The position numbers and the translations under genes were made by a program. A DNA stretch of 64,000 nucleotides, from contig NZ_AP022842.1 in NCBI RefSeq assembly GCF_011398925.1, forward strand, positions 3,026,001-3,090,000. Direction: 5' to 3'. The stretch is from Bacillus sp. KH172YL63 (GTDB taxonomy: Bacteria; Bacillota; Bacilli; Bacillales; Bacillaceae_B). Below are positions 7,529 to 59,605 of this stretch, in pieces (position 1 is the first letter of the stretch; each line of letters opens with the position of its first letter). The notes beneath the pieces were generated by a model. That model ran no database searches. It saw only the letters and a list, made by a program, of their open reading frames with translations, and was not told where the DNA came from.

Positions 7529-7675
7529 GGTCGACACGCCTCCTTTCCAGGAAGTTTCATAATAGTGTATGAGGCTTGGCCACGGAAAATTTCTAGTCTT
7601 TTTCATCTCCAAGGTGAATATGCTTGTACTAACACGGCGTAAAAAATTTATTGGGATAGAAGGGGGAGGACCGTC

Positions 7676-8062: not shown

Positions 8063-8071
8063 TTCAAAAAC

Positions 8072-8120
8072 AAAAAAAGGTTCCTCCCGATGTGCAACTG
8101 CAGATGAGAGGAACCTTTTT
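8072..8120. terminator. Bidirectional terminator between yrzE and yajC
   Basis: AAAAAGGTTCCTC pairs with GAGGAACCTTTTT around a roughly 20-base loop, with A and T tracts on both sides, as suits two convergent genes. Confidence 0.85.
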
Positions 8121-8130
8121 ACTATGCCTA

Positions 8131-8394: not shown

Positions 8395-8434
8395 TCTTTT
8401 CCCCTCCTTTCAGTATTGGTTGGTTAGCATTTTA

Positions 8435-9599
<1,165 letters not shown>

Positions 9600-10625
9600 T
9601 TATTTAATGAACATGGCATCTCCAAAGCTGAAGAAGCGATATTGTTCTTTGACGGCCGTTTCATAGGCGTGCATGACGTTTTCCTGACCTGCAAACGCAC
9701 TGACAAGCATGATGAGGGTCGATTTAGGCAAATGGAAGTTGGTGATGAGGCCATCGATCCCTTTGAATTCATAACCTGGATAAATGAAAATATTCGTCCA
9801 GCCATTCTCTTCCACGAACTCCCCGTGCTTGGAAGCAATCGTTTCAAGTGTACGGGTCGAAGTCGTTCCGACCGTGATGATCCGCCCGCCACTTGCCCTG
9901 ACTTCGTTCAGGAGGCGTGCAGTTCCTTCTGATACTTGATAGAACTCTGCATGCATGTCATGGTCCTCAATCGTATCAACCGATACCGGCCTAAACGTCC
10001 CCAAGCCGACATGAAGGGTGATGAATGCAATATGTACACCTTTTTCCCTTAGTTCATCCAACAGCTCTTCGGTAAAGTGAAGGCCTGCTGTCGGTGCAGC
10101 CGCTGAGCCTCTTTCACGGGCAAAAACCGTCTGATAGCGGTCCTGTTCTTCGAGACGTTCACGGATATACGGTGGAAGCGGCATTTCGCCGAGTTCATCC
10201 AGCACTTCATAAAAGATGCCTTCATATTGGAATTCAAGGATCCTGCCCCCGTGTTCTTTTAATCCGACACAGGTAGCTTTCAGCTTGCCGTCCCCGAAGA
10301 CGATCTCGGTACCGACCCGGATCCGTTTGGCAGGCTTGACAAGTGTTTCCCACTTATCTCCGTCCTCCTGCTTCAAGAGCAGCACTTCAATGTTGGCCCC
10401 TGTATCTTCTTTTTGCCCAAAAAGACGGGCAGGCAGTACCCTCGTGTCATTCAGGACGAGGCAGTCCCCTTCCTGAAGGTAATCGACGATATGTTTAAAG
10501 CGGAGATGATCCATCGAACCATCTTCCTTATCAAGCACCATTAATCTACTTTCAGATCGATTTTCCAGAGGGGTCTGGGCAATCAGTTCTTCAGGTAAAT
10601 GAAAATCAAAATCTTCTACTTTCAC
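9600..10625 (-). CDS. queA: S-adenosylmethionine:tRNA ribosyltransferase-isomerase
   Basis: QueA transfers and isomerises the ribosyl part of S-adenosylmethionine onto the preQ1 base in tRNA, the step after Tgt. The 341-residue product has the usual length. Hallmarks are [18 protein letters not shown] at the N-terminus, [15 protein letters not shown], the serine/threonine-rich [11 protein letters not shown], and [15 protein letters not shown] near the C-terminus. It starts at GTG 10625 after AGGTGAC. It lies directly upstream of tgt in the same operon, so it would have no substrate if the tgt frameshift is real. Confidence 0.95.
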
Positions 10626-38415: not shown

Positions 38416-38856
38416 TCAGTTTTTCCTCAGGGACTGAATCGTAAGGGTGGAAAACGGGATTTCTTCTTTATCTCCTTCTTCATTGGAGCATAGATTGTAC
38501 TCATCACCGACCAAACAGATCGAAATCACACTCTCCCCATCAGCGAGGACATAGGAATTGTCATCCGGTGACAGGACAGTTTTTGAATGTGGATCTAAAA
38601 TCGGCTCGATCAAGTTGGCATCCACCAATTCTTTGTAGGTGATTTTATTGATGCTCTTTTCCTGAAGCACTGCATCCTTCGCATAATACTGTGCCGAGCT
38701 TTTCATCGTGAGTGCGTTCGCGACGAATGCCTGTTTTTTTGATTTATCAATGATGTTGTTAATGGCGAGGATGGCAATAACCGCTATGATTCCCAGTATG
38801 ACGATCACTGCAAGCAATTCCACAAGCGTATAGCCTTTTTCATTCTTTGTCATCAT
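38416..38856 (-). CDS. Type IV prepilin-like protein, last gene of pilus operon
   Basis: A 146-residue prepilin. The leader MMTKNEKG is followed by YTLVELLAVIVILGIIAVIA; cleavage after Gly leaves Tyr at +1 and the required Glu at +5. Aromatic Tyr in place of methylatable Phe at +1 is unusual. The globular part contains a Cys pair in ICLVGDEYNLCSNE. It differs from the pilin at 41976, so it is a minor pilin or a second major pilin. AAAGGTTTGATGA precedes the ATG, 11 bases after pilO. Confidence 0.88.
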   Translation of the reverse strand: MMTKNEKGYTLVELLAVIVILGIIAVIAILAINNIIDKSKKQAFVANALTMKSSAQYYAKDAVLQEKSINKITYKELVDANLIEPILDPHSKTVLSPDDNSYVLADGESVISICLVGDEYNLCSNEEGDKEEIPFSTLTIQSLRKN

Positions 38857-38867
38857 TCATCAAACCT

Positions 38868-39626
38868 TTAATTGATCTTTACATTCTCTGAATTTTGTTG
38901 CGGGAACTGCTGAAAAGGATTCTTTTTGTTCGATGGCAACGGTGTATCAAGCTTCGGCAGTTCACTTTCCAACTCCACAAGTCCTGGTAAATAAAATGCT
39001 GAGACAACCAGGTTCAACTGAATATTCTCCACATCCTCTTTATATTGGAGGATTTCAGCAGGCCCGCTGAAGGAAATTTGCTCAACTTCCACGATCCGGT
39101 GCAATTCTTCTAGTTCCTGGATGAATTTCTCAATTTCAAAATAGCTTTTTGCTTCAATGGCAAGTGTCGCAGTAAGCTTTTGAATCCCCGGCGGCAGCAT
39201 ATCTCCAGGAGGCGGGTTTCCTTCGACACCTTCTCCTTCAGCCACCTCTCCCTCTGCAGGAAGAGCTGATCCTTCGGTCATGGGCAAGGTGACAGACCCT
39301 TCTGAAAACGCCATCGACTTGATGAAGCTGTCAGAGACGATCTCGGCTTTTTCAAGGTCGATCAACAGCTGTTGCGTCATTGGTTTGACCGGTACCTTTT
39401 GCTGAAGGGAGCTGGAGTTTTCGAATGAGTCCTGCTTGATGGAAGCGATCTTGCCATCCAATGCTTCAATCAACTTCTTCTCTGTGTTGATGTCATTTTG
39501 AACATTTTCCCTTTGGTTCTTCACCGGAAGATAGAAAAACCAGACAGCGCTGAAAATCAGGCCGATCATCAGTACGAGGGCAGTACCGATCGCAATCCAT
39601 TCTTTTTTTGAAAACCGGATGCTCAT
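38868..39626 (-). CDS. pilO: Type IV pilus inner-membrane protein PilO
   Basis: A 252-residue bitopic protein: one membrane helix (about 11-31, AIGTALVLMIGLIFSAVWFF), a coiled coil (about 37-65) and a ferredoxin-like periplasmic-type domain (LTATLAIEAKSYFEIEKFIQ). The Pro/Gly/Glu-rich insert GEVAEGEGVEGNPPPGD lies mid-protein. PilO pairs with PilN outside the membrane, linking the platform to the pilus. It overlaps pilN by four bases. Sequence conservation in this family is low; the assignment rests on topology and neighbours. Confidence 0.82.
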   Translation of the reverse strand: MSIRFSKKEWIAIGTALVLMIGLIFSAVWFFYLPVKNQRENVQNDINTEKKLIEALDGKIASIKQDSFENSSSLQQKVPVKPMTQQLLIDLEKAEIVSDSFIKSMAFSEGSVTLPMTEGSALPAEGEVAEGEGVEGNPPPGDMLPPGIQKLTATLAIEAKSYFEIEKFIQELEELHRIVEVEQISFSGPAEILQYKEDVENIQLNLVVSAFYLPGLVELESELPKLDTPLPSNKKNPFQQFPQQNSENVKIN

Positions 39627-40243
39627 TCCGAATCGCCCCCTTGCTCTTCGGTTTCATTTTCCTTACTCTTAATCGCTTCTCTGTTAAGGGTCAGCTCATA
39701 TTGAGCCGTGTACCTCGGCAGGATGACTTCCGTATTGATGACATTTTGAATTTCACTTCCGGATATCTCTTCTGTTTCCACAGCTAATAGATTCGCATCC
39801 AGTATGTATTCCGATTCCTTCAAATGGGTTAAATAATAGGCTGCTTCCCTGCTCGTGTCGAATTGGACGGTTACTCCGACTCTTCCATTTTCCCCGTAGG
39901 TGAATTCTTTCATGAATCCACGTTCTGGAAGCAACTCTACCAATCCATCAAGGACAGGAACTGTTTCGATTGGATAGCTTTCAGCCCAGCCGACTGCGCT
40001 TTCGAGCTGAACCCAGGCGTCGGATGATTCGAAATTGGAGATGCTTTGCTCCTTTTCTGCCCGCAGCTGCTTGTAGCCTTGAAGTTCACTGCTCAAAGCA
40101 TCTACCTTTTTTCCCTCATTGGAAGACAATATGAATAAGAGAATAAGAGCGATCAGTCCGACAGCTGCAATGCCGATCACCGCAAAGAGCCACTGCCGGT
40201 TTCTTTTTTCACTTTGAGGTAATAAATTGATTTCGACGAGCAC
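39623..40243 (-). CDS. pilN: Type IV pilus inner-membrane protein PilN
   Basis: A 206-residue bitopic protein. The N-terminus MLVEINLLPQSEKR contains the I-N-L-L-P motif by which PilN binds PilM in the cytoplasm. One helix (about 19-40), a coiled coil and a ferredoxin-like domain (FDTSREAAYYLTHLKES) follow. The GTG start overlaps the pilM stop by one base, after GAGGTGAT. Confidence 0.9.
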   Translation of the reverse strand: MLVEINLLPQSEKRNRQWLFAVIGIAAVGLIALILLFILSSNEGKKVDALSSELQGYKQLRAEKEQSISNFESSDAWVQLESAVGWAESYPIETVPVLDGLVELLPERGFMKEFTYGENGRVGVTVQFDTSREAAYYLTHLKESEYILDANLLAVETEEISGSEIQNVINTEVILPRYTAQYELTLNREAIKSKENETEEQGGDSE

Positions 40244-41208
40244 TATATCACCTCTTTTAAACCTAAACCAATTGCTAGCAGGAATTGGTCAGATAATCTT
40301 TGGTCCGTATGGATATCCCGCGCTTCTGAAGGGACGTGGATGACCCCGATGTCAAAGCGGTCGGACAGCAGTTTGTGAATATCGCCGGTCATCGGATGAT
40401 CGCCTGCCACAAAGATCTTGTTGATGGCCGCTTCATCATTGGTGAGTGTATACCGGTAGAAACTGATCACTTTATCGATTTCTTTCACCGTCTCATCAAA
40501 GGGACGGGATTGAAAGCCGCTGTGATTCATCGAAGAATCCTCCATCACTTCCCGGTCATGGGAAATGCCGATCGGCCTGAAAAAGACCGGCTGATGGTCA
40601 TGGAAGATCGATACCGTCACATTATTCTGGGTGAAGTAGAGGAGCATTTCGTGCTGGGCACGATGTGTGATATCCAGTGAGTGGATATAACGGTAGTATG
40701 CAAGTGGACTGATATCGGCGACGACAGGCTTCAAATGTGCGTCTGATAGCAGCTGCTGATAGTCAAGGACGATATCTTCCGGTGCTGCGACAAGGACGAT
40801 TTCTTTCTTATCATCCTTATTCCCCACAACCACCACATCAAAGATTGGATTTTCAAAGGGAAGATGGATGCTCGTCCCGATTTCAAGGAACAAATGGCTT
40901 TTCACTTCATCGTCTGCGATGTCTGAGGAAATCGTCATTTTCCTTACAATCATTTGAGTGTTGGGCACGATGAATTGAACTTCACGCTTCTTGATCCCCC
41001 ACTCAAGGACACATTCTTCCAATAAGGCCTGTAACGCTTCTTTTTCAATGATTTTCCCATCTGAGATCATCCCGTCCGCTATCCGCTTCTCTCCATGTTT
41101 GTAAATGTGTAATGGAGATACAGATTTAATTTCCACAAACCGAATCCATTGATCACTGATGACGAGATTGATTTTATTATTATGTTTATTGAAGAGACGT
41201 GATAACAT
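40243..41208 (-). CDS. pilM: Type IV pilus assembly actin-like protein PilM
   Basis: A 321-residue cytoplasmic actin-fold protein that connects PilN to the motor. NKINLVISDQWIRFVEIKS is the first phosphate-loop region, and LYFTQNNVTVSIFHDHQPVF and INKIFVAGDHPMTGDI the later ones. The residues are less canonical than in proteobacterial PilM, as common in Firmicutes. AGGGG precedes the ATG, 15 bases after the peptidase gene. Confidence 0.88.
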   Translation of the reverse strand: MLSRLFNKHNNKINLVISDQWIRFVEIKSVSPLHIYKHGEKRIADGMISDGKIIEKEALQALLEECVLEWGIKKREVQFIVPNTQMIVRKMTISSDIADDEVKSHLFLEIGTSIHLPFENPIFDVVVVGNKDDKKEIVLVAAPEDIVLDYQQLLSDAHLKPVVADISPLAYYRYIHSLDITHRAQHEMLLYFTQNNVTVSIFHDHQPVFFRPIGISHDREVMEDSSMNHSGFQSRPFDETVKEIDKVISFYRYTLTNDEAAINKIFVAGDHPMTGDIHKLLSDRFDIGVIHVPSEARDIHTDQRLSDQFLLAIGLGLKEVI

Positions 41209-41223
41209 CTTGGATAACCCCTT

Positions 41224-41967
41224 TTAGCTGTATAAAGAAAAATACCAATGCAGGATTGGTTGATGAAAGAAATATGCGAGTAGTGTACCGATGACAATGT
41301 ACGGACCGAACGCGATCGGTTCACCCCTTTTGAAATACCCGGTCATGAGGCCGGTGATCCCGACCACTGCCCCAAAGAGCGTTGCGAGAAAAAAGGAGAG
41401 AAGCATCAGTTTCACCCCCACAACGAACCCGATGACAGCGAATAATTTGATATCTCCGCCGCCCATTCCACCTTTACTGATGATCGCGATGAGCAGCAGC
41501 AGACTGAAGCCTGCTATGGCCCCTGCCAGACTGTCCCACCATGGATCAAGGGGAATGAAAATCCGTTCGATGATGAAAAGGACCGAGAAAAACAATAGCA
41601 CCTTGTCAGGAATGACCATATACTTGATGTCGCTGACCGTGATGATCATAAAAAGTGAGACCAGCGTCAGAGCGACAACAAGCTCCGGCTGGGCACCAAA
41701 CTTGAGATAAGACAGCAGAAATAATAGTCCGGTAGACAATTCCATCAATGGATAGAGAGGAGAAATGCGCCCCTTACATTGAGCGCATTTTCCACGTTGC
41801 ATCATATAGGATAGTACAGGTACAAGCTCCCTGGCCGTCAGTGTATGATGACAATACGGACATGCGGACCTTGGTTTGACGATCGATTTTTTAAGCGGAA
41901 TCCTGAGGCCTGCTACGTTGTAGAAGGAGCCTAGGAGGAGACCGTAGATTAGTATAAAAAGTACCAT
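41224..41967 (-). CDS. pilD: Prepilin peptidase (PilD/ComC)
   Basis: A 247-residue A24 aspartic peptidase that removes prepilin leaders and methylates the new N-terminus. The cytoplasmic zinc-binding CPYC...CAQC tetrad (SACPYCHHTLTARE, GKCAQCKGRIS) is present, and the two catalytic Asp residues are in SDIKYMVIPDK and GGGDIKLFAVIG. Its position between spoIIB and folC equals that of B. subtilis comC, so it probably also serves the competence pseudopilus. The ATG at 41967 has no clear Shine-Dalgarno and may depend on reading of the pilin gene 8 bases upstream. Confidence 0.93.
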   Translation of the reverse strand: MVLFILIYGLLLGSFYNVAGLRIPLKKSIVKPRSACPYCHHTLTARELVPVLSYMMQRGKCAQCKGRISPLYPLMELSTGLLFLLSYLKFGAQPELVVALTLVSLFMIITVSDIKYMVIPDKVLLFFSVLFIIERIFIPLDPWWDSLAGAIAGFSLLLLIAIISKGGMGGGDIKLFAVIGFVVGVKLMLLSFFLATLFGAVVGITGLMTGYFKRGEPIAFGPYIVIGTLLAYFFHQPILHWYFSLYS

Positions 41968-41975
41968 ATAAATAA

Positions 41976-42479
41976 TTATGGTGTGTTATTTGTTACAGCT
42001 GCTCTGTTAACCTCTGCAGCAGATAAAGGGATATTTCTCTTCGCACCATATAATTGAACATCATAAGTAAATTTACCACCGTTATTTGTTATTTTAACAA
42101 ATGAAGTATTTCCAGTGATTTCACCAAAGCTAGTTTGAGCGACTGTTCCTCTCTTGTATCCATCAGTATCTGTTTTTCCACCATCTGGATCATCCATTGT
42201 TTCTAAATATCCTTGAGCCTCTAAATACCCTAAACTAACGTAGGTTGAAGCACCGCTTGCCGGGTGAATTTTATCATTTGAAGTAACAGCAATTTTAGCT
42301 GAGCTAATCATTTGCTGAGCATTAGCAACGTGTGCATCTTTTCTCGAGTTATCGATCAACCCGCCAATACTAGGAATCGCAATCGCAGCGATAATCCCCA
42401 AAATAACGACAACTGCAAGTAATTCAATAAGCGTCAATCCACGTTCATTTTTCAGTTTTTGACCTAATTTTTTTAACAT
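41976..42479 (-). CDS. pilA: Probable major type IV pilin
   Basis: A 167-residue prepilin with leader MLKKLGQKLKNERG and mature start LTLIELLAVVVILGIIAAIA, Glu at +5. The globular part lacks cysteines and ends NRAAVTNNTP. It has its own strong ribosome site (AGGAGGAATTATC), a 110-base upstream gap and a candidate promoter, all fitting a highly expressed subunit. The gene is clearly more AT-rich than its neighbours, which may reflect expression-driven codon use or exchange of the pilin gene. It is called major pilin by inference. Confidence 0.88.
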   Translation of the reverse strand: MLKKLGQKLKNERGLTLIELLAVVVILGIIAAIAIPSIGGLIDNSRKDAHVANAQQMISSAKIAVTSNDKIHPASGASTYVSLGYLEAQGYLETMDDPDGGKTDTDGYKRGTVAQTSFGEITGNTSFVKITNNGGKFTYDVQLYGAKRNIPLSAAEVNRAAVTNNTP

Positions 42480-42531
42480 GATAATTCCTCCTGTTTTGTT
42501 ATCTTTTTCTAAAATCTAGTAATCTAGTACT

Positions 42532-42563
42532 AGTATACAACACTCATCCGACAAAAATATCAA
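42532..42563 (-). promoter_or_regulatory. Candidate promoter of the pilin gene
   Basis: On the minus strand TATACT (42537-42532) lies about 55 bases before the pilin ATG. A TTGATA lies 20 bases further up, longer than ideal spacing. The AT-rich gap also contains repeated CTAGTA strings. Confidence 0.35.
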
Positions 42564-42589
42564 TTTTTTTGCAAAATGATAGTTGTTTT

Positions 42590-43801
42590 TTAATAGTTTT
42601 GGACACTGTTGAAGATTTCGAACATCGGGACGAGGATCGAAGTCACGATGGTGCCGACCAGTCCTGCGAGCATGACAATCATGAGCGGTTCGATCAATGA
42701 TTTCAACCGGTCTGTCGTGCTCTCGACTTCCTTTTCATAGAAGTCGGCAACTTTGGCGAGCATCGCGTCCAGCGAGCCCGTTTCTTCCCCAATGGCAATC
42801 ATCTGGGTCACAAGCGGCGGGAACGCCCAATGGCGCTTCATCGGTTCTGTGAGGGATATCCCCTTTTCCAATGACCGTCTTGATTCACCGATCACTTTGG
42901 ATATGACCTCGTTTTCCACGACCTTCTCGACGATGGCAAGTGCCTGCAAAATCGGGACTGAGCTTGTGAACAAGGAACTTAAGGTCCTTGTCATCCTTGC
43001 GAGTGCCGCTTTTTGCAACATTTTCCCGAAGATCGGGATTCTGAGGATCGCATAGTCGAGATAATATTTCGTTTGCTTGTTCCGTCGTAACATGGCAAGC
43101 GTGACGGCAACCGCCACGAAAAGTAAGATGATCAAATACCAGAACTTTTGCATAAATTCACTCGAGCTGATGACAAACTTGGTGATCGCCGGCAGCTCGC
43201 CGCCGAAGTCGGTGAGCATATTGACGAAAGTCGGCACGACGGCGGCCAATAGGAAGATGACGACGCCGATTGCAATGACGCCTACAACCATCGGGTAAGC
43301 GAGCGCCGAGATGATCTTCTGCCTGGTGATATGCTGCTTTTCATAATGGGTGGCGAGCCCTTCCAGCGTTTCGTCGAGACTCCCTGATGCTTCCCCGGCT
43401 TTCAGCATATTGATAAGTAACGGTTCAAAAATCTTTTTATGGCGGGCGAATGCATCAGACAACGGATTACCGTCCCTCAATTCATCCTCTATCTCCATCA
43501 GTGCTTTACCTAGTGCCTTACTTTCTGTTTGTTGGGCAAGGATGTGGGTAGATTCGACGACGGTGACCCCCGCTTGAAGGAGCGTAGAAAACTGCCTCAG
43601 GAAAATAACGAGGTGCTGCAGCTTCACAGGGTTGCCGATCGTGATATCCTTCGTCATCAGCGTTTCCGGCAGTTCCATGATGTCTACGACCCTGACTTCC
43701 TGCTTTTTCAGCTGGATGAGTGCATCCTTTTTCGTCGAGGCAGTAATCACTCCGGATTTTTTACCCGATTGATCCCGGCCTGTATATTTAAAACGTCCCA
43801 T
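42590..43801 (-). CDS. pilC: Type IV pilus platform protein PilC
   Basis: A 403-residue GspF/PilC membrane protein, the platform on which the ATPases act. Two GspF domains are visible, beginning FLRQFSTLLQAGVTVVES (about 68) and ARMTRTLSSLFTSSVPILQA (about 270), each followed by helices; GEASGSLDETLEGLATHYE and GEETGSLDAMLAKVADFYE are the paired signatures. The ATG is directly after the pilT stop. Confidence 0.96.
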   Translation of the reverse strand: MGRFKYTGRDQSGKKSGVITASTKKDALIQLKKQEVRVVDIMELPETLMTKDITIGNPVKLQHLVIFLRQFSTLLQAGVTVVESTHILAQQTESKALGKALMEIEDELRDGNPLSDAFARHKKIFEPLLINMLKAGEASGSLDETLEGLATHYEKQHITRQKIISALAYPMVVGVIAIGVVIFLLAAVVPTFVNMLTDFGGELPAITKFVISSSEFMQKFWYLIILLFVAVAVTLAMLRRNKQTKYYLDYAILRIPIFGKMLQKAALARMTRTLSSLFTSSVPILQALAIVEKVVENEVISKVIGESRRSLEKGISLTEPMKRHWAFPPLVTQMIAIGEETGSLDAMLAKVADFYEKEVESTTDRLKSLIEPLMIVMLAGLVGTIVTSILVPMFEIFNSVQNY

Positions 43802-44845
43802 TTATTGAGGAAGCTCCTCTCTGCTGTAAGGATAGGCCATTTCTTTTGTGATGAGGCCTCCCTCATAGAGATTCATCACGCTGTCGCTCATGATGTGCAT
43901 GCCGGTTGACTTCGATGTCTGCATGACATTTTGAATTTGATGCACTTTCTCTGAACGGATCAGGTTGGCGATCGCTGCATTATTCATAAGCAGCTCAGTC
44001 GCAGCCCTTCTCCCTTTTTTGTCTGCGGTGGCAAACAGGCGCTGAGAAAGAATCCCGACCAGCACCGACGCAAGCTGCACTCGGATTTGTGACTGCTGTT
44101 CAGGCGGGAATACATCGACGATCCGCTCGATGGTGGCTGGTGCGCTTGATGTATGAAGCGTCGCCAGGACGAGATGACCGGTTTCTGCAGCGGTGATCGC
44201 TGTATGAATCGTCTCAAGATCCCTCATCTCACCGACGAGGATGATATCCGGATCCTGCCTGAGGGCACTTCTCAACCCTTTGGAAAAGGAGCCTGTATCA
44301 AACCCCACTTCCCGCTGATCGATGATCGATGCGCCGTGTTTATGCAAGTATTCGATCGGATCCTCAAGGGTGATGATATGCTTTCTCATGTGGCGGTTCA
44401 TATAGTCGACGATCGATGCAAGTGTCGTAGACTTTCCGCTGCCAGTCGGACCGGTCACAAGAAACAGCCCTTGCGGCTTCTCCGCGATCGTCTTCAGTGC
44501 ATGAGGAAGGAAAAGCTCCTCCATCGTCGGGATCGACGTTGGGATGACACGGATCGCAAGTGAAATACAGGATCGCTGTTTGAACGCATTGATCCTGAAT
44601 CTTGAAACCCCCGGGATTCCATAGGAGAAATCCAGCTCCCCTACTTCCTCAAACACCTCATACATATTTTCAGCGATGATGGCCCTCGCCATGGATGAGG
44701 TGCTCTCCGGAAGTAAATTTTCTTTACCGAATCTCTTCAAGTCCCCGTGGATGCGAAAAATCGGCGGAGACCCCACGGTCAGGTGGATATCCGATGCCCC
44801 AAGTTCATAGGCTGACTTCAAGAGATAATCAACTTTTTCTTTCAT
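43802..44845 (-). CDS. pilT: Type IV pilus retraction ATPase PilT
   Basis: A 347-residue hexameric ATPase that depolymerises pili and drives twitching. Walker A is GPTGSGKSTTLA, the Asp box follows in RKHIITLEDPIEYLH, Walker B is DIILVGEMRDLETI and the His box is GHLVLATLHTSSA. The PilT-type N-terminal ASDIHLTVGSPPIFRIHG and the C-terminal AIANLIRSEKVHQIQNVMQT support PilT over PilB. Competence systems lack this enzyme, so its presence marks a retractable pilus. A GTG at 44854 is the alternative start. Confidence 0.96.
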   Translation of the reverse strand: MKEKVDYLLKSAYELGASDIHLTVGSPPIFRIHGDLKRFGKENLLPESTSSMARAIIAENMYEVFEEVGELDFSYGIPGVSRFRINAFKQRSCISLAIRVIPTSIPTMEELFLPHALKTIAEKPQGLFLVTGPTGSGKSTTLASIVDYMNRHMRKHIITLEDPIEYLHKHGASIIDQREVGFDTGSFSKGLRSALRQDPDIILVGEMRDLETIHTAITAAETGHLVLATLHTSSAPATIERIVDVFPPEQQSQIRVQLASVLVGILSQRLFATADKKGRRAATELLMNNAAIANLIRSEKVHQIQNVMQTSKSTGMHIMSDSVMNLYEGGLITKEMAYPYSREELPQ

Positions 44846-44854
44846 TCCATTCAC

Positions 44855-46516
44855 CTACTCTGAAATCGCTACTCTTAACACTTCTTCCGTGGTCGTCAAG
44901 CCCTGCTTCACCTTCAGCAGCCCATCATCGATCAGGAAGATCGTTTTATTCCGGACCGCGTGTTCACGTAGTTTCGAGAAAGGCTCGTTGTTCAGGATGA
45001 CCTTTTTCATTTCGTCATTCATGACCAGTACCTCATGAATGGCGATCCGTCCTTTATATCCTGTCATATTGCAGGATGAACAGCCTCTTCCACGGGTGAT
45101 CGTTTCGATCTTCATACCCCTTTTGGCAAAGATCTCGACTTCCCTTTTCGTGGCGGGCATTTCCTGTTTGCAGTCACGGCATACTTTCCGAATCAACCGC
45201 TGGGCCACCACCCCACTCAGGGAGGAAGCCACTAAAAACGGCTCGACGCCCATATCAAGCAGTCTTGTAACCGTACTGATCGCATCATTTGTATGGATCG
45301 TGCTCAACACGAGATGTCCGGTCAGTGACGCTCTGATTGATACTTCAACCGTTTCCTTATCCCGGATCTCCCCGACCATGATGATGTTCGGATCCTGACG
45401 GAGGATGGCCCGGAGTCCCTTCGCAAAAGTCAAACCTACGTTTTGATTCACGCCGATCTGATTGATCCCCTCGAGCTGATACTCAACCGGATCCTCGATC
45501 GTAATGATGTTCACTTCTTCACTGTTAAGGTGATTCAGTGCTGCATAGAGGGTTGAGGACTTACCTGAACCGGTAGGTCCTGTAATCAGGACAATCCCTG
45601 TCGGCTGCTGGATCATCTTCATGAATCTTTGGTGATTCACCTTATTGAAACCAAGTTTCCCGAGGTCATTCAGGCTCGATCCAAGATCAAGTATCCGCAA
45701 CACGATTTTCTCCCCGTATACGGTCGGCAATGTCGACACACGGAGGTCGATCGGATGGAAGTCGATATTCACCTTGATCCGCCCGTCCTGTGGCACCCTG
45801 AATTCAGTGATATCCAGATTGGCCATGATTTTCAGCCTGGCTGTCAGCATGCTTTGCATATGCTTCGGAAGATTTCGTTCCGTTCTCAGGATCCCGTCAA
45901 CCCTGTATCGGATGACGACTTTTGTTTCTTGTGGATCAATATGGATATCACTTGCTTTTTGTGTGACGGCATTCGACAGAATCCCGTTCACTAGTCTCAC
46001 AATCGGGGATTCTGAATCAACAATCGTTTCTTCTTCGACCTGGTTTTGATTTCTGTTTTCCTGAAACAGGTCTTCGAATCCATCTTCTAAATCATAGAAT
46101 TTATTGATGACTTTCAGGATGTCATCCTTCGTGGCAATCGCCGTCTCAATCTGAAAACCTGTCGCCAGGCGAAGGTCCTCGATTGCGTAGAAATCAAGTG
46201 GATCGCTCATGGCGACAAATAGCTTGTCCCCTTCTTTTTTCAGGGGGATCATCAGGTTTCGCTTTGCCGATTCTTTCGGGATTAAATGAAAAAGGTTCGT
46301 TTCGAAGGGGTATCTGTATAAGCTGACATGTGGAATGCCAAGCTGGAATTCAAGTACTTCGATCAGCTGCTGTTCCGTTATGTATCCCCTTTGTAAAAGG
46401 GCGTCCCCAAGCTTCTGGCCCTTGGCTTTGTCTTTCAGCGTGTCCTGTAATTGGGATTCTGAAATGATTCCCGCCTCAACAAGCAAATCCCCAAGTCTTT
46501 TTTTAATCGTCGTCAC
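44855..46516 (-). CDS. pilB: Type IV pilus extension ATPase PilB
   Basis: A 553-residue GspE/PilB ATPase. It has an N-terminal GSPII_E_N (MshEN-like) domain (about 1-150; KRLGDLLVEAGIISESQL and LGDALLQRGYITEQQLIEVL), Walker A GPTGSGKSSTLYAAL (about 312-326), Walker B IIMVGEIRDKETVE, His box HLVLSTIHTNDA and the zinc tetrad CRDC...CSSC. MshEN domains can bind cyclic di-GMP. The N-terminal motif here (RLGDLLVEAGIIS, LGDALLQRGYIT) resembles the binding motif, and a diguanylate cyclase lies at 56454. GTG start with AGGTGATAC. Confidence 0.96.
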   Translation of the reverse strand: MTTIKKRLGDLLVEAGIISESQLQDTLKDKAKGQKLGDALLQRGYITEQQLIEVLEFQLGIPHVSLYRYPFETNLFHLIPKESAKRNLMIPLKKEGDKLFVAMSDPLDFYAIEDLRLATGFQIETAIATKDDILKVINKFYDLEDGFEDLFQENRNQNQVEEETIVDSESPIVRLVNGILSNAVTQKASDIHIDPQETKVVIRYRVDGILRTERNLPKHMQSMLTARLKIMANLDITEFRVPQDGRIKVNIDFHPIDLRVSTLPTVYGEKIVLRILDLGSSLNDLGKLGFNKVNHQRFMKMIQQPTGIVLITGPTGSGKSSTLYAALNHLNSEEVNIITIEDPVEYQLEGINQIGVNQNVGLTFAKGLRAILRQDPNIIMVGEIRDKETVEVSIRASLTGHLVLSTIHTNDAISTVTRLLDMGVEPFLVASSLSGVVAQRLIRKVCRDCKQEMPATKREVEIFAKRGMKIETITRGRGCSSCNMTGYKGRIAIHEVLVMNDEMKKVILNNEPFSKLREHAVRNKTIFLIDDGLLKVKQGLTTTEEVLRVAISE

Positions 46517-46537
46517 CGTATCACCTGCTTCAAGGTC

Positions 46538-47899
46538 TTATTTATATTCTTTTTTCTCTGACTTTGATTTAGCGGAGCTCTTCGAAGAAGGCTGCTTTGA
46601 CGCTTCATCACCCTGATCCTGGGAAGGTTCTCCCTCGCTATCTTCGGAAGGAGGGGTTGGATTGGTGTCCTCCTCACCAGCAGGATCACCGCTTTCGTCT
46701 TCGCCCTGGTCCTGGATATTGTCAAAGTCACCTTCAGTTGTATTCACTTCATGCTCTTCTAAAGGGTAGACAGCAATTTTATGAAGGGGGGCATAGAAAT
46801 CTTCGTTGATCAGTTCTTCTGAAAGGATTTCTCCCGACGAGCTCAATTTCTGCTTATATACCCTGATGAGAACGCCATCCTCCCCTTGCTGTACAGTATC
46901 GACAGTCCCCTTGTCGACAAATGGACTGAACTGTTTAATCGTCCGCGGGGCAAAGGTTTCTTTATCCGATAAGCGCACGTTATAAGCATTAGGGAAAGGA
47001 ACACCATGCAACTGCGCTTTGATTCTGTTACCGTCGATGCCCAATTTCAGCTCGTACCCTGTTGCGTTCGGATTCGTGATGACAAAATCCTGATTATTCA
47101 TCGGATTAAATTTTGCTTCAAAGCCAAGAGACACATAATCAGGAAGCTGCTTGCTGATATTCCGTTCAATGATGGAAAAGTTGGAGTGCAGACTGATTTG
47201 ATACAGCAATGATGACACCGGACTTAGATCAGCTTGTGATTCAACTACAAATCCTTCAGATTCTAAGAAGTCAGCAAATGAAAACTGGGAGTTCGGTGCA
47301 ATGGGTATGGTGGGAAAATTGTCTATGAAGTTCTTGACCGTTGGTGTGATCTCTAATTCATTGGACACTGCCTCAAAAATGACTTGTGCAGACTCATTAC
47401 TAGTTATGTAGTCGGAAATATTGACCCCTTCATCGACCTGAAGACTGCCAACCAAGGAAATCAAGTATTCCTGTAAGGAAACGACGTTGAGTTCCTCGGC
47501 ATGATAATCTGTCAATTGTCCAGAAAGGAAAGCGTCAAAAGAAGGTTGATCTACACTGACTATTAAACTGGTATTTGGATTATTCTCCAGCCTTTCAATA
47601 CTCTCTTCCAAATGGAACGTGAAGATGGACGGGTCCAATTTCACGCTTTCCCCACTGTATTCAAGTATGATATTTTGGCTGTTTTTCCATTCTTCAACCT
47701 TTTCCCCAAGTCTCTTCACAGCCTCTTCCCTGCTAATTCCGCCTAAATTGATAGATGCAACTGCAGCATTCTTTGAGAGTTTAAGAGACTGGACAAAAAA
47801 TGATTCATAAGCATAGACGCCTAAATGAGAAAACCCGTATAGAAAAAACGTAGATAAGAATAAAACGGTCATAAGTTTAATAAGCAGACCTTGTTTCAC
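46538..47899 (-). CDS. VanW-like exported protein in pilus operon
   Basis: A 453-residue protein with an N-terminal signal anchor (about 8-30), then a YoaR/VanW-like extracytoplasmic region (peptidoglycan-binding-like repeat KLSKNAAVASINLGGISREEAVKRL; IAPNSQFSFADFLES resembling the VanW core). The C-terminal ~75 residues are acidic and then Ser/Lys-rich (EDSEGEPSQDQGDE, SSKSSAKSKSEKKEYK), probably disordered and wall-facing. VanW-family functions are unclear; a role in letting the pilus cross the wall is speculation from context. GTG start after GGAAGGAG. Confidence 0.75.
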   Translation of the reverse strand: MKQGLLIKLMTVLFLSTFFLYGFSHLGVYAYESFFVQSLKLSKNAAVASINLGGISREEAVKRLGEKVEEWKNSQNIILEYSGESVKLDPSIFTFHLEESIERLENNPNTSLIVSVDQPSFDAFLSGQLTDYHAEELNVVSLQEYLISLVGSLQVDEGVNISDYITSNESAQVIFEAVSNELEITPTVKNFIDNFPTIPIAPNSQFSFADFLESEGFVVESQADLSPVSSLLYQISLHSNFSIIERNISKQLPDYVSLGFEAKFNPMNNQDFVITNPNATGYELKLGIDGNRIKAQLHGVPFPNAYNVRLSDKETFAPRTIKQFSPFVDKGTVDTVQQGEDGVLIRVYKQKLSSSGEILSEELINEDFYAPLHKIAVYPLEEHEVNTTEGDFDNIQDQGEDESGDPAGEEDTNPTPPSEDSEGEPSQDQGDEASKQPSSKSSAKSKSEKKEYK

Positions 47900-47921
47900 G
47901 TTTTGGGCTCCTTCCTGGTTC

Positions 47922-48674
47922 TTACTTGATATTCATCGTTAGATCTACAAACACAGATGGGCCCGCTTCTTGCGCTGCTTTAATATCGGATTCCGTCAAA
48001 GATGAACCTTTTGCGATCAGTAAATGCCCCTCAAGGTTATAAATATCTTCCGTCACTTTTTTCCCAGCCAATAATTGTGTCTGCTTGGACTTGATCGTTT
48101 CAATACCCTGCTGCGGCTGCTCCTGGACTACTGGCTCGTATACCACTTGTTCTTCCTCAATCGCCGGTTCCGGAGTGGCAACTTGGTCGACAGATCCTTT
48201 GAAATTCTCAGCAGCATCTTCATTTACAATGATGATGTCTTTCCCGAACGTTAACACATGCTCGGTTCCAAGGAAGTACGTTTTGTCCTGTGCATGCATT
48301 TCCAAGGAAACAATCGAACCTGTATCTTCATCCACAAGGAATTCCTGTATGCTTCCGATCATTTGACCTTTACGGGTCATGACGCGGGTATCATTGATTT
48401 TGATTTTTTTATTCACAAGCTGATTCGCGATCGGAATTTCATTCAAGTCGATCACGGCATTCTCATTTTCGACTGTCACGGCGTATTCCCCGATCCCGAT
48501 CACCTTTTTGAATGGAATTGCCTTCACGCTGATCTGCCAGTCTTCATGTTCGATTGTAAGGAAATCCACAGATCCTTTGTCCGGATTGATCACAAGGGAT
48601 TTGACCCTGCCAATTTCGCTTCCGTCGGATATACTGATTATCGGTAATGTCTTCATTTCTGCGCTTCTTTTCAT
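47922..48674 (-). CDS. PRC-barrel domain protein in pilus operon
   Basis: A 250-residue cytoplasmic protein with two PRC-barrel-like repeats: residues about 8-85 (LPIISISDGSEIGRVKSLVI) and 88-165 (KIKINDTRVMTRKGQMIGSIQEFLVDEDTG). A Gln/Glu/Pro-rich linker and a C-terminal segment (LLAGKKVTEDIYNLEGHLLIAKGSSLTESDI) follow. PRC barrels often mediate protein contacts; no pilus function is established. It begins 10 bases after the gene upstream, so it belongs to the same operon. Confidence 0.75.
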   Translation of the reverse strand: MKRSAEMKTLPIISISDGSEIGRVKSLVINPDKGSVDFLTIEHEDWQISVKAIPFKKVIGIGEYAVTVENENAVIDLNEIPIANQLVNKKIKINDTRVMTRKGQMIGSIQEFLVDEDTGSIVSLEMHAQDKTYFLGTEHVLTFGKDIIIVNEDAAENFKGSVDQVATPEPAIEEEQVVYEPVVQEQPQQGIETIKSKQTQLLAGKKVTEDIYNLEGHLLIAKGSSLTESDIKAAQEAGPSVFVDLTMNIK

Positions 48675-48684
48675 GTCATCTCAC

Positions 48685-49950
48685 CTATTCTATCGTTTTA
48701 ATTTCACTAAGTTGCTCTACTGCATATTCATTCGTCTGTTCGAGATCCATTTGAATATAAGGGTACGCTTTGAATCTTTCGCGGATTCCTTTGATGAACA
48801 TTTCCAGGTCCTCGAATTGCCCTGACGAAATGTAATGATCCATTAATATTCTTGAAAATGTGTAGTAATCTTGGTCGTGTAAACTCGGGTGTAGATAGTG
48901 TTTGATCATGTTTTCCATTTGATCCGATGAATACAGGTTCCGTGAAAGAGAAATCTGTTCAATCATCGTCTTCATCACTTCCCTCATGATCCTTGGACGC
49001 TCGGGTAGCCCTTCACTCTCCGACTCTTGTGGTGCAATGCTCTCACCCGCTTCTTCCGGCGACAATGGAATCTCTGCATCATCAGTTGTCGAATCAAGTT
49101 CCTCTGTAGGGAGACCCTCTTCGAAAAGGAGGTCCTCGAGATCTTCCTGCTCATCTGAAGTCTCTACTTCTTCTTTCTCGTGGAGCTCTTCATTGTCTAT
49201 GGAGTCTTCGGAGTCTTCGGAGTCTTCTAATACTTCATCCGATGCCTCTTCGATGTCTTCGGGTTCACTTTCATCCTCTACACTGTCATCACTCAGCATA
49301 CTTTCAATCTCACTCAGATCGCTTACGATTTCTTCGCTTTCCACGTGAGCAGCTGCTTCCTCGGAAAGGACTTCATTCAGACCGTTTTCTTCGGTATTTT
49401 CAATGAACCATTCACTTTCGTCTTCTTCTGTCTGGATGGTATCCATGCCTTGCGGGATGCTGTCTTCTTCAAGGCTCTCCTCTGCCGTCTCCGGTTCCGA
49501 TACTGCCACTTCAAGCTCTTCTACAGTTTCAATGATATCATCTTTCTCCAACGGGTCTTCCACATCAAGGGCTGCTTCACTTTCTTCCCCACGGGAGGCA
49601 GGAAGGACCGTTTCCTCTAAAGCGTTGCTTTCACTCTTCCCCATATGTATGGTTTCCTTGGATCCTTCGAATGTATGCACAGATTCCGCTTCTTCCAAAT
49701 CATGACCAGCCGGTACCAATAGACTGCTGAAGCGCTGTTCGATCATATAGGATGAAATCCCGAGCAGGACTATCAGCATGGTACCTATCATCCAAATCGG
49801 GTAAGTGTTTGATGCGACCAGTCCGAGGAGAGTCAAACTAAAGGCAATTGCAGCGATCAACAATTTCCCCTTCACGCTCAATCCTATCGGAATGAAATAT
49901 AAAATAGGTAGCAATAGAATAAGTGCGAGTATTGAAAATAGGTAAATCAT
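48685..49950 (-). CDS. Unknown acidic membrane protein, first gene of pilus operon
   Basis: I do not recognise this 421-residue protein. Residues 1-72 hold three hydrophobic helices (ILALILLLPILYFI, LLIAAIAFSLTLLGLVA, IGTMLIVLLGISSYMI). Residues about 85-310 are a very acidic, probably disordered linker (for example EVLEDSEDSEDSIDNEEL). The C-terminal ~100 residues look folded and helical (RIMREVMKTMIEQISLSRNL, DYYTFSRILMDHYISSG, YPYIQMDLEQTNEYAVEQ). The tight spacing to the next gene places it in the pilus operon. A tethered C-terminal domain that binds a cytoplasmic pilus part is a plausible guess only. Confidence 0.7.
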   Translation of the reverse strand: MIYLFSILALILLLPILYFIPIGLSVKGKLLIAAIAFSLTLLGLVASNTYPIWMIGTMLIVLLGISSYMIEQRFSSLLVPAGHDLEEAESVHTFEGSKETIHMGKSESNALEETVLPASRGEESEAALDVEDPLEKDDIIETVEELEVAVSEPETAEESLEEDSIPQGMDTIQTEEDESEWFIENTEENGLNEVLSEEAAAHVESEEIVSDLSEIESMLSDDSVEDESEPEDIEEASDEVLEDSEDSEDSIDNEELHEKEEVETSDEQEDLEDLLFEEGLPTEELDSTTDDAEIPLSPEEAGESIAPQESESEGLPERPRIMREVMKTMIEQISLSRNLYSSDQMENMIKHYLHPSLHDQDYYTFSRILMDHYISSGQFEDLEMFIKGIRERFKAYPYIQMDLEQTNEYAVEQLSEIKTIE

Positions 49951-50027
49951 CTTACATTCAACCCCTTCCTATGATATATTTCATATAAATCAGACTTAAT
50001 TTAACAAGTTTCGACTACTAGATATTG

Positions 50028-50033
50028 TATAAT
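50028..50033 (+). promoter_or_regulatory. -10 box for the minor prepilin operon
   Basis: A perfect TATAAT lies about 30 bases before the first minor prepilin start, in the 96-base gap between divergent operons. No good -35 is visible at 16-18 bases, so an activator may be needed. Confidence 0.4.
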
Positions 50034-50064
50034 AAACTCAGGTATTTTGAAAGCGGGTGTGGGA

Positions 50065-50586
50065 GTGAAACATATAAAAATATTAAAAAATAATAGAGGG
50101 TTCACCCTGATCGAACTTTTGGTTTCCATTACCATCCTCGGGATCGTCCTCCTCAGCTTTATGAAATTCTTTCTGCAATCCAGTACATATACGAACTACA
50201 ACCAGAAGAAAACGGTGGGGGTGAATGTCGCCCGGAATGTCCTGATGTTCATGGAAAAGCAAAACTTCCCCGAAACGAGGGATTATTTTCATGGCGTCAA
50301 CACAGGAACCACTGAACCCGATGATGCATTCTTGAATGTATTCATCTGCGATGACAAGTACCGCACTTTCTCCAACTCTACTCCAGAAGCAGATTCATGC
50401 CCAAACAAACAAAATATTATGATCAACGGATTGGAATACGAAACGAGTGTGTATTCCGAGCCTGTCAGCAACAGCGATGAAATGGATTATTATATTCCAA
50501 TTACAATTCAAGTGAGGTGGGAAATCAATGACCGGGAATACCATACATCGGTTGATGGAAAGGTTAAAAGCGAAGACATCCGATAA
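50065..50586 (+). CDS. Minor type IV prepilin 1 (PilV/GspI-like)
   Basis: A prepilin of about 173 residues. The leader ending KILKNNRG is followed by FTLIELLVSITILGIVLLSF, with Phe +1 and Glu +5. The globular part has Cys residues in NVFICDDKY and ADSCPNKQ that could form a disulfide. The start is uncertain: GTG 50065 has a weak GGGTGTGGGA upstream, and TTG 50047 is the alternative. It overlaps the next gene by 59 bases. Confidence 0.85.
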   Translation: MKHIKILKNNRGFTLIELLVSITILGIVLLSFMKFFLQSSTYTNYNQKKTVGVNVARNVLMFMEKQNFPETRDYFHGVNTGTTEPDDAFLNVFICDDKYRTFSNSTPEADSCPNKQNIMINGLEYETSVYSEPVSNSDEMDYYIPITIQVRWEINDREYHTSVDGKVKSEDIR

Positions 50587-51115
50587 CAGGGGAATCACCT
50601 TGATTGAGCTATTGGTCACATTGACGATCTCCTCCATCCTTTTACCCGTCACGTACGGGGCGATCATTACCGGATACAAAGTCTATGAAAAGGTATCAAT
50701 CGATACACAGTTAAGGGAAGATGCAGATTATGTATCGGCGATGGTCATGAAGAATCTGTATTCCTATCCTTTTGACAGCGTAGAAGGGTGTGCGCCCGAC
50801 AGCACCTCCTGCATCACATTCGTGAATAATACCGAAAAAAAGGTTACGCCGTACTCCGGTAAATCTTTCTATGAAGTGGAAGATGGCGCGATCCAGCAGG
50901 ATGCCCAAACACTCCAACTCGTGCAAGTGGGTGACAAACATCAATGGAGCTTTAACGGGGTCATCCTCGAGACACCTTCAGATTTCACCGGTTCCACCGT
51001 ATCCACCAGCTGCACGGCAAGTCCATGTAAGGATGCCATGATCACATTGCATTTCGACGTGAGCCATCCTCATTTCGATAAGACACTTCAATTAGAAAGT
51101 AACTTTGGATTCTAG
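50528..51115 (+). CDS. Minor type IV prepilin 2 (PilW/GspJ-like)
   Basis: A 195-residue prepilin with leader MTGNTIHRLMERLKAKTSDNRG and mature start ITLIELLVTLTISSILLPV, Ile +1 and Glu +5. GspJ/PilW-like features are YKVYEKVSIDTQLREDADYV after the first helix. Two Cys pairs (EGCAPDSTSCITF; STSCTASPCKDA) suggest disulfides. ATG 50528 follows GAGGTGGG inside the previous gene. Confidence 0.87.
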   Translation: MTGNTIHRLMERLKAKTSDNRGITLIELLVTLTISSILLPVTYGAIITGYKVYEKVSIDTQLREDADYVSAMVMKNLYSYPFDSVEGCAPDSTSCITFVNNTEKKVTPYSGKSFYEVEDGAIQQDAQTLQLVQVGDKHQWSFNGVILETPSDFTGSTVSTSCTASPCKDAMITLHFDVSHPHFDKTLQLESNFGF

Positions 51116-51131
51116 AAGGGAGAAAAGCACG

Positions 51132-53003
51132 TTGTTAACCAATGAAAGAGGAAACGCCTTATTGACCGTCCTCATCACCTCGCTCGTGATGGTGACGATA
51201 GGCATGGCCATCATCAGCTCTACGATCGGTGGCGCCAAAAGAACTGAGGTAAGGGAAACAGACATCGACATTACATACGAAGGCTTAAAAGCGGTCGAAG
51301 AGATTTCTGCAAAGCTCGTCTTCCAACTCCAGCCGTCACAAAAGCTCGGCATCGATCAACTGACACCACTGAATATGAATACAAAAGTCGCAGACTTCAT
51401 CCAATCAGATATCATTCCTTCATACGGGACATCCGATACGATCAAATGCATCACCATCGTCGATGTCAGCGGCCAGACAGCCTATAATCTCCTGGGAGAT
51501 CATTGCGGGAAAGCAAACTCCCTCACCTATCATACTTTTGGATTGGCGTATTTGAATACCAATCTAACCCGTGTGTATGAATTGATTGTGCAGACGAAAA
51601 ATCCAGATTCGGAACAGGGTAAAATCGAAAAAACCGTTCGAAAAAGAATCATCCTGTCCCCCATCCCAAGCTTTCTGAAATACACATTGGGATCAAGGGG
51701 CATGCTTGAATTGAACGGCTCGCCCCATCTCGTGGGGAACGTCTACGCCCGTTCACTGGGCATCAGTGAGAACGCAAAGTATCAGCTGTCAGCGTCTGAC
51801 CAGCTGGATGTCGAGGCCCCGTTGCCATCCATCATGGGCGACCTGTATACCAGTTATGAACCGTCCAGCTATGCCGCTATCAAATCTTTGGTTGATGATG
51901 AAAAGTTTTATCCCCATCTTCCAATGCCGGAGATTAAACAGGACAGCCAGTTTACAGACATCGCATTCGATCGGACCTATGAAGAGGAAGTCGGCAAAGT
52001 GCTGAGTTCTCTTAATCTCCCGCTGGGTACAAGCATTACCCAGGATAATCTGATTTCTGCAATCGGCCGTAATCTCCTTGTGAACACCCCGATTCTCCCA
52101 CCTATCACGAACGGGATTCTGAATCCCAACGTACAAGGCATCGTGAAATCAAACCGGAGCATCACGGTGAAATCCCTCGCCAATACAGGCGTAGACCTGA
52201 TCGTACAGGGAGATGTCAACATCCTGGCGAACTCTGCCATGAGTATAGGCAACATCATTTCTACAGGGAATGTAACGATTTCTAATTTGACTGGCGAAAT
52301 GAATATCGGAAATATCATCGCTGCCGGAAAGGTGTCGATCGAAGCAAATGCACCGGTAAAGATCAGTGACAACATCGTCAGTTTCGACAATACTTCTTTT
52401 CAGTCTCAAAATTCCACTTCCATTATCGAAGGGAACATTTTCTCCGGCAGGAATTTAACGATCCAGGGAGATGCCAATGACCCCAATGGTGAGAATGATG
52501 AAATCGCATTTGACTCTGTCATTTATGCGAAAGGAAAGACAAGCATTTCCAACCTGAATATCACAGGACACAGCGGTACCTCTGGAACCGGACAGCTCAT
52601 CCTTCTATCTAAGGGACAGTTATTGGTCACGCGGATGAATGAATTCCAGTACTATGCCGACGAATCAGAGAAGGACAAAGCTTCCCTTTTGCCTGATCCT
52701 GCAGAAAGCATCAAACCATTACAGGCCTTCTTCTATACAGACAGTGATGCAACGCTGTACGGGGTCGGTTCCCTCTTCTATGTAAACGGAGGGGTGTTCT
52801 CAAGGGGCAACCTGACTGTCAATGCCGTCCGGGGGAATGTGGACAATATGGCAAGTATCAAGACCGACCTTTTTTCGAATCAGGAGGAAAAGTTATCCCG
52901 GTTCATCGTCAATTATAATAAAGACGTGCTTCTATCCAAGCTCGATGCCCTTCCGCGGGTCGAGGCACTTTCCCTTATCAGCGATGAGATATTGGTAGAA
53001 TAA
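51132..53003 (+). CDS. Large PilX/GspK-like minor pilin with repetitive C-terminal region
   Basis: A 623-residue protein. The short leader MLTNERG is followed by NALLTVLITSLVMVTIGMAI, with Asn +1 and no Glu at +5, as in PilX and GspK, the subunits that cap tip complexes. The N-terminal ~200 residues carry a Cys pair (IKCITIVD, GDHCGKA). From about 320 the sequence has many beta-strand periods with Asn/Gly/Ser turns (VDLIVQGDVNILANSAMSIG, NIISTGNVTISNLTGEMNIG), suggesting a beta-helix. TTG 51132 lies 9 bases after AAGGGAG. I know no named family for the C-terminal part. Confidence 0.8.
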   Translation: MLTNERGNALLTVLITSLVMVTIGMAIISSTIGGAKRTEVRETDIDITYEGLKAVEEISAKLVFQLQPSQKLGIDQLTPLNMNTKVADFIQSDIIPSYGTSDTIKCITIVDVSGQTAYNLLGDHCGKANSLTYHTFGLAYLNTNLTRVYELIVQTKNPDSEQGKIEKTVRKRIILSPIPSFLKYTLGSRGMLELNGSPHLVGNVYARSLGISENAKYQLSASDQLDVEAPLPSIMGDLYTSYEPSSYAAIKSLVDDEKFYPHLPMPEIKQDSQFTDIAFDRTYEEEVGKVLSSLNLPLGTSITQDNLISAIGRNLLVNTPILPPITNGILNPNVQGIVKSNRSITVKSLANTGVDLIVQGDVNILANSAMSIGNIISTGNVTISNLTGEMNIGNIIAAGKVSIEANAPVKISDNIVSFDNTSFQSQNSTSIIEGNIFSGRNLTIQGDANDPNGENDEIAFDSVIYAKGKTSISNLNITGHSGTSGTGQLILLSKGQLLVTRMNEFQYYADESEKDKASLLPDPAESIKPLQAFFYTDSDATLYGVGSLFYVNGGVFSRGNLTVNAVRGNVDNMASIKTDLFSNQEEKLSRFIVNYNKDVLLSKLDALPRVEALSLISDEILVE

Positions 53004-58166: not shown

Positions 58167-58261
58167 CTTTATCCCCCATACGTATTCCATTTCAAATTAG
58201 TAAAAGTCGTAGTTAAATAGTCACAAGTTTAAGAATATTTTATCAAATACCCTCACTAAAG

Positions 58262-59578: not shown

Positions 59579-59605
59579 GTGCTTCACTCCCATTATTATC
59601 ATGAA

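Follow-up and report, generated by a model that had tools for sequence, protein, structure and literature searches.

What does a set of type IVa pilus genes do in a spore-forming Bacillus between spoIIB and folC, an interval in which B. subtilis presumably carries only comC, and what would stand at the tip of such a pilus? The question is raised by a window of 64,000 nucleotides, C1:3026001-3090000 of the genome of Bacillus sp. KH172YL63 (G000, a single contig of 4.25 Mb), in which positions 38416-53003 carry pilB, pilT, pilC, pilD, pilM, pilN and pilO together with five prepilin genes, and in which the module extends past 53003 up to 55932, a gene for a vWA (von Willebrand factor A) protein included. 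The core locus is real, conserved and already known in Bacillus relatives; new here are the tip cassette, with PilX and the vWA protein, and the reading of comC as a remnant. We consider it probable that the locus encodes a type IVa pilus which a monoderm extends and retracts, with a PilV-PilW-PilX tip and a PilY1-like vWA cap.

Read down from folC, the order is a GGDEF gene and the vWA gene (both on the minus strand), three minor pilin genes (plus strand), the genes of a 421-aa membrane protein, a PRC-barrel protein and a VanW/G5 protein (all three minus), and then, still on the minus strand, pilB, pilT, pilC, the major pilin gene, pilD, pilM, pilN, pilO and a further prepilin gene, followed by spoIIB. 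Families were called at the curated cut-offs of Pfam and NCBIfam, and the motif search used patterns for Walker A, MIDAS, MshEN, GGDEF, the Glu5 rule and LPXTG. The genes of the machine are:

38416..38856, minus: minor prepilin, 146 aa, KGYTLVELL; N_methyl 32.1 bits, cut-off 21.2
38868..39626, minus: pilO, 252 aa, weakly assigned; Pfam PilO and T2SSM below cut-off; placed by position, with similar genes in most pil loci
39623..40243, minus: pilN, 206 aa, weakly assigned; Pfam PilN below cut-off; placed by position
40243..41208, minus: pilM, 321 aa; PilM_2 75.3 bits, cut-off 27
41224..41967, minus: pilD/comC prepilin peptidase, 247 aa; A24_N_bact and Peptidase_A24, the only A24_N match of the genome
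41976..42479, minus: probable major pilin, 167 aa; N_methyl; fast divergence
42590..43801, minus: pilC platform protein, 403 aa; T2SSF 217.8 bits
43802..44854, minus: pilT retraction ATPase, 350 aa; TIGR01420 (pilT_fam) 474.4 bits, cut-off 319.1
44855..46516, minus: pilB extension ATPase, 553 aa, with an N-terminal MshEN domain that binds cyclic di-GMP (c-di-GMP); T2SSE 453.1 bits, MshEN 74.6 bits

All named pil genes are open reading frames at these positions, just as an earlier sequence-only reading had placed them, and the same gene set is seen in dozens of genomes, which excludes chance. Walker A motifs were found in PilB and PilT, and the CxxC pairs and GGGD in PilD; T2SSE scored above its Pfam cut-off in PilT too, and four prepilins possess Glu5 and a class III N_methyl segment above the Pfam cut-off. 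The MshEN domain of PilB also matched NCBIfam NF053729 (c-di-GMP_motif) with 63.4 bits against a cut-off of 38, and control of PilB by c-di-GMP is therefore likely. The view that this is a pilus of its own, able to retract, was supported by the scores of PilT and PilM, with PilN and PilO recognised by position: the system is probably a separate type IVa pilus, retractable by prediction, that may drive twitching or adhesion. PilP and PilQ, likewise said to be lacking, gave no match in the scanned proteins of the locus, to which that search was confined. In the mechanism that we propose, PilB, under the control of c-di-GMP by way of its MshEN domain, would drive the PilC platform together with PilT, PilM, PilN and PilO would align the platform, and PilD would process the five prepilins of the locus as well as those of ComG.

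The ratio of nonsynonymous to synonymous substitution rates (dN/dS) of the pil-locus genes, calculated against two relatives (G005 and G004) with synonymous sites near saturation, was 0.01-0.36 where it could be computed, which for several values it could not; a 43-codon maf fragment at 0.77 was excluded. The peak belonged to the major pilin (0.31-0.36), which among 13 close relatives is 48-65% identical over the aligned part, compared with 95-98% for PilB, as if it were under pressure to vary, for example from pilus-binding phages. A scan of positions 36000-60000 with Rfam for c-di-GMP riboswitches and other RNAs gave no matches at gathering thresholds. Promoter and terminator counts were near the shuffled expectation (39 against 32.5, standard deviation 5.8, and 17 against 17.9, standard deviation 4.4, respectively), so we make no claim on transcription.

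The proposed tip cassette comprises four genes:

50047..50586, plus: pilV-like minor prepilin with Glu5, 179 aa; N_methyl 37.9 bits
50528..51115, plus: pilW-like minor prepilin with Glu5, 195 aa; N_methyl 26.8 bits
51105..53003, plus: pilX/GspK-like modular minor pilin without Glu5, 632 aa; called from its N-terminus; predicted model with a confidence score (pLDDT) of 85.6
53044..55932, minus: secreted vWA protein, 962 aa, proposed tip adhesin, ending in GRW; VWA_2 69.9 bits; model pLDDT 85.0

PilX, whose start is probably nine codons later, is a putative prepilin by its class III-like N-terminus; it gave no Pfam pilin match, PilX_N included, and its predicted model contains a long beta-helix. 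ComZ was not adopted as its fold family, ice-binding beta-helices scoring equally or higher. Glu5 is missing from the mature protein well beyond this strain: in the 63 of 64 loci of the vWA family (defined below) where the residue could be called, none was acidic. The vWA protein is predicted to be secreted, from a signal peptide judged by eye and unscored. The best fold matches of its model include SpaC, PitA, Mfa5, RrgA and GBS104, and the motif search found no LPxTG, the sortase sorting signal. The PilY1 beta-propeller gave no Pfam match in it at E up to 0.1, and PilC/PilY1 structures are not among the listed fold matches, which by itself excludes nothing; having failed the family test, the protein is thus said to work like PilY1 and not to be PilY1. 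It ends in Trp in 58 and in Tyr in four of the 67 family loci, and in Trp in 68 of 73 homologues (of 81, the eight lowest-scoring left out). The homologues closest to the PilX and vWA proteins of the window bear the titles Rossellomorea or Bacillus sp.

In the proposed mechanism the PilV-PilW-PilX complex would prime assembly, with the Glu5-less beta-helix PilX as the outermost pilin, and the vWA protein, with its immunoglobulin (Ig)-like domains, would sit non-covalently on the PilX tip and bind surfaces. It would thereby do the job that PilY1 does in two-membrane bacteria, with an architecture like that of the tip adhesins of sortase pili, and its conserved C-terminal Arg/Lys-Trp may be a docking tail. 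We lean slightly towards the more specific claim that the monoderm type IVa pili of Bacillaceae carry a convergent PilY1, namely a vWA protein of the SpaC/RrgA type that lacks a sorting signal, docks through Arg/Lys-Trp on a Glu5-less PilX, and forms an exchangeable cassette with PilV, PilW and PilX.

The linkage of the vWA gene to pilX was examined in two samples. The first came from 61 genomes searched with PilM_2, namely the host, 35 relatives of the same genus (Rossellomorea, according to the titles of homologues and contigs, many of which read just Bacillus sp.) and 25 others of the order. PilM_2 matched in all 61, since proteins of about 725 and 440 aa match it too, and the presence of pil was therefore judged from the occurrence of a short PilM frame and from the content of the locus. 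(The protein of about 725 aa is found at C1:3367373-3368176 in G000 and in many relatives.) We fetched 52 short-PilM loci, 33 from the same genus and 19 from other families, and eight prepilin-peptidase loci of genomes without it. Among the 52 loci with pilB or pilT (the window and 51 relatives, G060 skipped), with thresholds of at least 200 bits for pilX and at least 50 bits for vWA, 25 had both genes (in G030 with a weak vWA match, 98 bits), one (G040) had pilX only, none had vWA only, and 26 had neither; eight of these 26 encode a protein that resembles PilX weakly (23-126 bits) and show no vWA match.

The second sample was obtained with the vWA protein in a single scan of 84,980 species genomes; a relative was encoded in 198 stretches, the best 80 of which yielded 77 loci. 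A clear gap separated 67 family members (at least 260 bits) from 10 others (at most 91 bits), which gave no matches to pilB, pilT, pilV or pilX. folC was present in all 67 family loci, pilB in 61, pilT in 59 and vanW in 59. pilX was found in 64 of the 67, namely in all 64 whose contig does not break off just beyond the vWA gene; the remaining three contigs stop 82, 188 and 279 bases past it. By title, the hosts include Rossellomorea, Domibacillus, Cytobacillus, Niallia, Neobacillus, Geobacillus, Parageobacillus, Anoxybacillus, Thermolongibacillus, Robertmurraya, Priestia, Metabacillus, Schinkia, Calidifontibacillus, Brevibacillus and Aneurinibacillus. Two genomes whose pil loci are without the cassette have an unlinked prepilin pair followed by a longer Glu5-less protein (405 aa in G003, 483 aa in G026), which matches the pilX profile weakly (17.1 and 37.2 bits, respectively) and in G026 reaches 33.9 bits for Pfam PilX_N against a cut-off of 25.5. 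These trios lie at:

L108 (G003), 7518-9623: unlinked minor-pilin trio
L109 (G026), 8169-10480: unlinked minor-pilin trio

As both genomes keep a V-W-X trio without the vWA gene, the long PilX and its vWA partner appear to come and go as a unit. The trio of G003 lies downstream of a tad-like cluster (named by eye), a CWB2 protein and a histidine kinase.

The same counts bear on the simplest competitor, a plain type IVa pilus like those of S. sanguinis and clostridia, beside which the vWA protein is a mere neighbour and a free surface adhesin. That half of the 52 pil loci do without vWA and strong pilX, and that the vWA gene is on the strand opposite to pilX, speaks for it, but a mere neighbour would hardly be accompanied by pilX in every family locus not cut right after vWA, nor be absent from every one of the 52 pil loci that lacks pilX, and we regard this explanation as unlikely. 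Several observations nevertheless weigh against the capped pilus. The strong pilX of G040 without vWA, together with the loci that have neither, means that the machine can do without the cap, and no vWA family match was found in the stretches fetched around the G003 and G026 trios. Adjacency in relatives stems partly from shared descent, which inflates the 52-locus count. In nine of the 67 family loci the protein ends in a residue other than Trp; this is Tyr in four, and two of the other five are fragments. Moreover, the tail (residues 944-958) is unstructured in the predicted model. Finally, PilN and PilO scored 15.5 and 15.6 bits against Pfam cut-offs of 22.8 and 22 and had no NCBIfam matches, so that their identity is a weak assignment from position, size and conserved gene order. 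Scores below NCBIfam cut-offs were also obtained for pilM (83.4 against 133), type_IV_pilB (620.3 against 675.65) and the GspF model. PilB and PilC score high for GspE and GspF too, as a type II-like secretion system would have it, but PilT is above its cut-off; and a decaying, functionless locus is contradicted by open genes and by conservation at the protein level through many families. Either of these two would be very surprising.

There is also the idea that the pil locus serves DNA uptake, as a second competence pilus that replaces a ComG system interrupted in this strain. The independent comG operon that the sequence-only reading had asked after exists elsewhere in the genome, where comGB (a T2SSF match) and comGC (an N_methyl match) occupy roughly 2812.7-2814.1 kb, and its comGA is split into a 3' part (2814038-2814736), a 5' part (2850128-2850703) and a second 5' part (2865576-2866472). 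The first 5' part adjoins the gene of a serine-type integrase of 507 aa (PHROG integrase, E 4.7e-123). Between the pieces there are matches to terminase, portal, major head, tape measure and endolysin families. Among the PF00437 matches of the genome, the split leaves the pil locus as the sole PilB/ComG-type set whose extension ATPase looks unbroken. A tad-like pair, a 461-aa T2SSE ATPase and its T2SSF neighbour, is found at about 325 kb, and the genome may hence hold pil, tad and com genes together. comGA breaks near residues 184-192 in G000, and in G005 and G007 with the 3' part alone seen; near 274-280 in G000, G001, G010, G012 and G020; and near 250 in G017. In G016 and G018 an extra 5' fragment accompanies an apparently intact gene. 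comGA has been struck repeatedly by inserted elements in this genus, a kind of disruption known from a prophage in Staphylococcus pseudintermedius, according to an excerpt of PMC7029219. In the search table comGA also looks split in G002 and G015, whose loci were not fetched. No core repeat of at least 10 bases was found at the splits in six of eight pairs, one site having 9 bases; the repeats of 38 and 52 bases that were found are, by eye, parts of comGA itself and carry no information on attachment sites. The count on which the replacement idea can draw is that comGA is unbroken in 11 of 22 genus relatives, and we consider it quite improbable as an account of the locus.

If the pilus with its capped tip is real, was it added at comC, as the sequence-only reading proposed? 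By tblastn, pilB, pilT, pilC, pilM and pilD all matched in 33 of 35 genus relatives (G035 with partial matches) and in 17 of the 25 other genomes of the order. Of the latter, G046 lacks pilB and has a stub of pilT, G060 lacks pilB, pilT and pilC, and six keep pilD alone. spoIIB or folC flanks 48 of the 50 relatives' loci with pilB, and neither does in G040 and G049. The locus is probably old in this part of Bacillales. The direction of change implied by an addition at comC has to be reversed within this genus. G002 and G018, of the same genus, have a folC-spoIIB stretch with pilD and no pil genes, otherwise containing a GGDEF gene in G018 and open reading frames below 81 aa. The PilD tree groups the two together within the genus, a starred branch (97/90) joining them to the clade of the window, and a comC-only locus there would consequently be the outcome of pil loss; loss of the pil genes with pilD retained is the simplest reading. 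Because branches outside the genus are long and 23 of 58 inner branches are starred, loss is claimed for these two genomes only. In three further families (G050, G058 and G059) pilD also lies between folC and spoIIB and pil genes are absent; neither flank was seen in the 19 kb fetched around the peptidase in G036, G042 and G057. A prepilin-peptidase N-domain occurs exactly once per genome in the nine searched (the host and the eight without pilM), so the PilD of the window must serve ComG as well.

The remaining genes of the interval are accessory or flanking:

46538..47899, minus: VanW/G5 protein, 453 aa, pil accessory; VanW 28.8 bits, cut-off 27, G5 below cut-off
47922..48674, minus: PRC-barrel protein, 250 aa, accessory in many pil loci; PRC 50.9 bits
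48685..49950, minus: 421-aa membrane protein; matches in many pil loci
56454..58190, minus: GAF-GGDEF diguanylate cyclase, GGEEF; domain matches and motif
58262..59602, minus: folC, locus flank

The first three (46538-49950) were absent from the sequence-only reading, as was the vWA gene, which lies beyond its range. The VanW/G5 protein, matched in 50 of 52 pilM loci and in none of eight loci without pilM (a comparison of loci), has an N-terminal hydrophobic stretch and is a candidate guide of the pilus through the thick wall. The 421-aa protein, for which Pfam and NCBIfam scans gave no family, is fast-evolving; membrane helices lie at its N-terminus, and its middle part is acidic, through which its weak matches possibly arise. 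The GGDEF enzyme was rejected as dedicated to pil, adjoining folC in loci without pil as well.

Type IV pili of Bacillaceae had been called poorly studied, which may hold for their function; as an excerpt of the paper of Imam et al. (PMC3244431) records, pil operons of Bacillus sp. NRRL B-14911 and Geobacillus were already described in 2011. The Gram-positive operons described in the excerpts of that paper and of PMC9765702 share pilB, pilC, pilD, pilM, pilN and often pilT with ours, and Paenibacillus thiaminolyticus (PMC9765702, in part) shares the MshEN-PilB; they differ in that these excerpts describe no separate tip protein and no comC-only remnant, the term 'von Willebrand' occurring in neither paper and 'folC' not in PMC3244431. 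The Com pilus must share PilD, the sole such peptidase found in the genome, but has a separate operon and neither PilT nor PilM, PilN and PilO. In this genus, the history suggested for the comC position is that of a pil locus stripped to the shared peptidase.

Among the open-access papers listed, we found none that reports type IV pili of a monoderm with a vWA cap as a separate tip protein. The type IVa pilus of Streptococcus sanguinis, in the portions of PMC6916266 and PMC8179133 that treat it, is likewise that of a monoderm, with PilT and PilM, with PilN and PilO (weakly assigned in our locus), with no outer-membrane parts and with an adhesive vWA module, but there the module is fused to a pilin (PilB), whereas the vWA protein of the window is secreted as a protein of its own, next to a pilin without Glu5. 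The sortase-pilus tips SpaC, PitA, RrgA and GBS104 and the type V tip Mfa5, all among the best folds of the vWA model, differ in that the protein of the window lacks LPxTG and is linked to another class of pilus. A separate vWA cap linked to PilX in monoderms would give a simpler model of the priming, grip and surface sensing of type IV pili, in spore-forming and thermophilic hosts amenable to aerobic cultivation. Contact with a surface might be detected by way of the vWA domain. Diderm type IVa pili display PilC/PilY1 at the tip, and tip complexes are capped by a Glu5-less subunit (excerpt of the review PMC10191384); in Myxococcus, PilY1, with an N-terminal vWA domain and a conserved C-terminal domain, primes the pilus together with minor pilins, PilX without Glu5 being placed on top (excerpt of PMC7541494). 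The likeness of the PilV-PilW-PilX-PilY1 tip in that excerpt to the cassette described here comprises the linked minor pilins, the Glu5-less PilX and a secreted, non-pilin vWA partner; the difference is that diderm PilY1 belongs to a beta-propeller family, to which the vWA protein of the window shows no match, having Ig-like beta domains instead. If the reading of a convergent PilY1 is true, tip complexes with a vWA cap have at least two origins.

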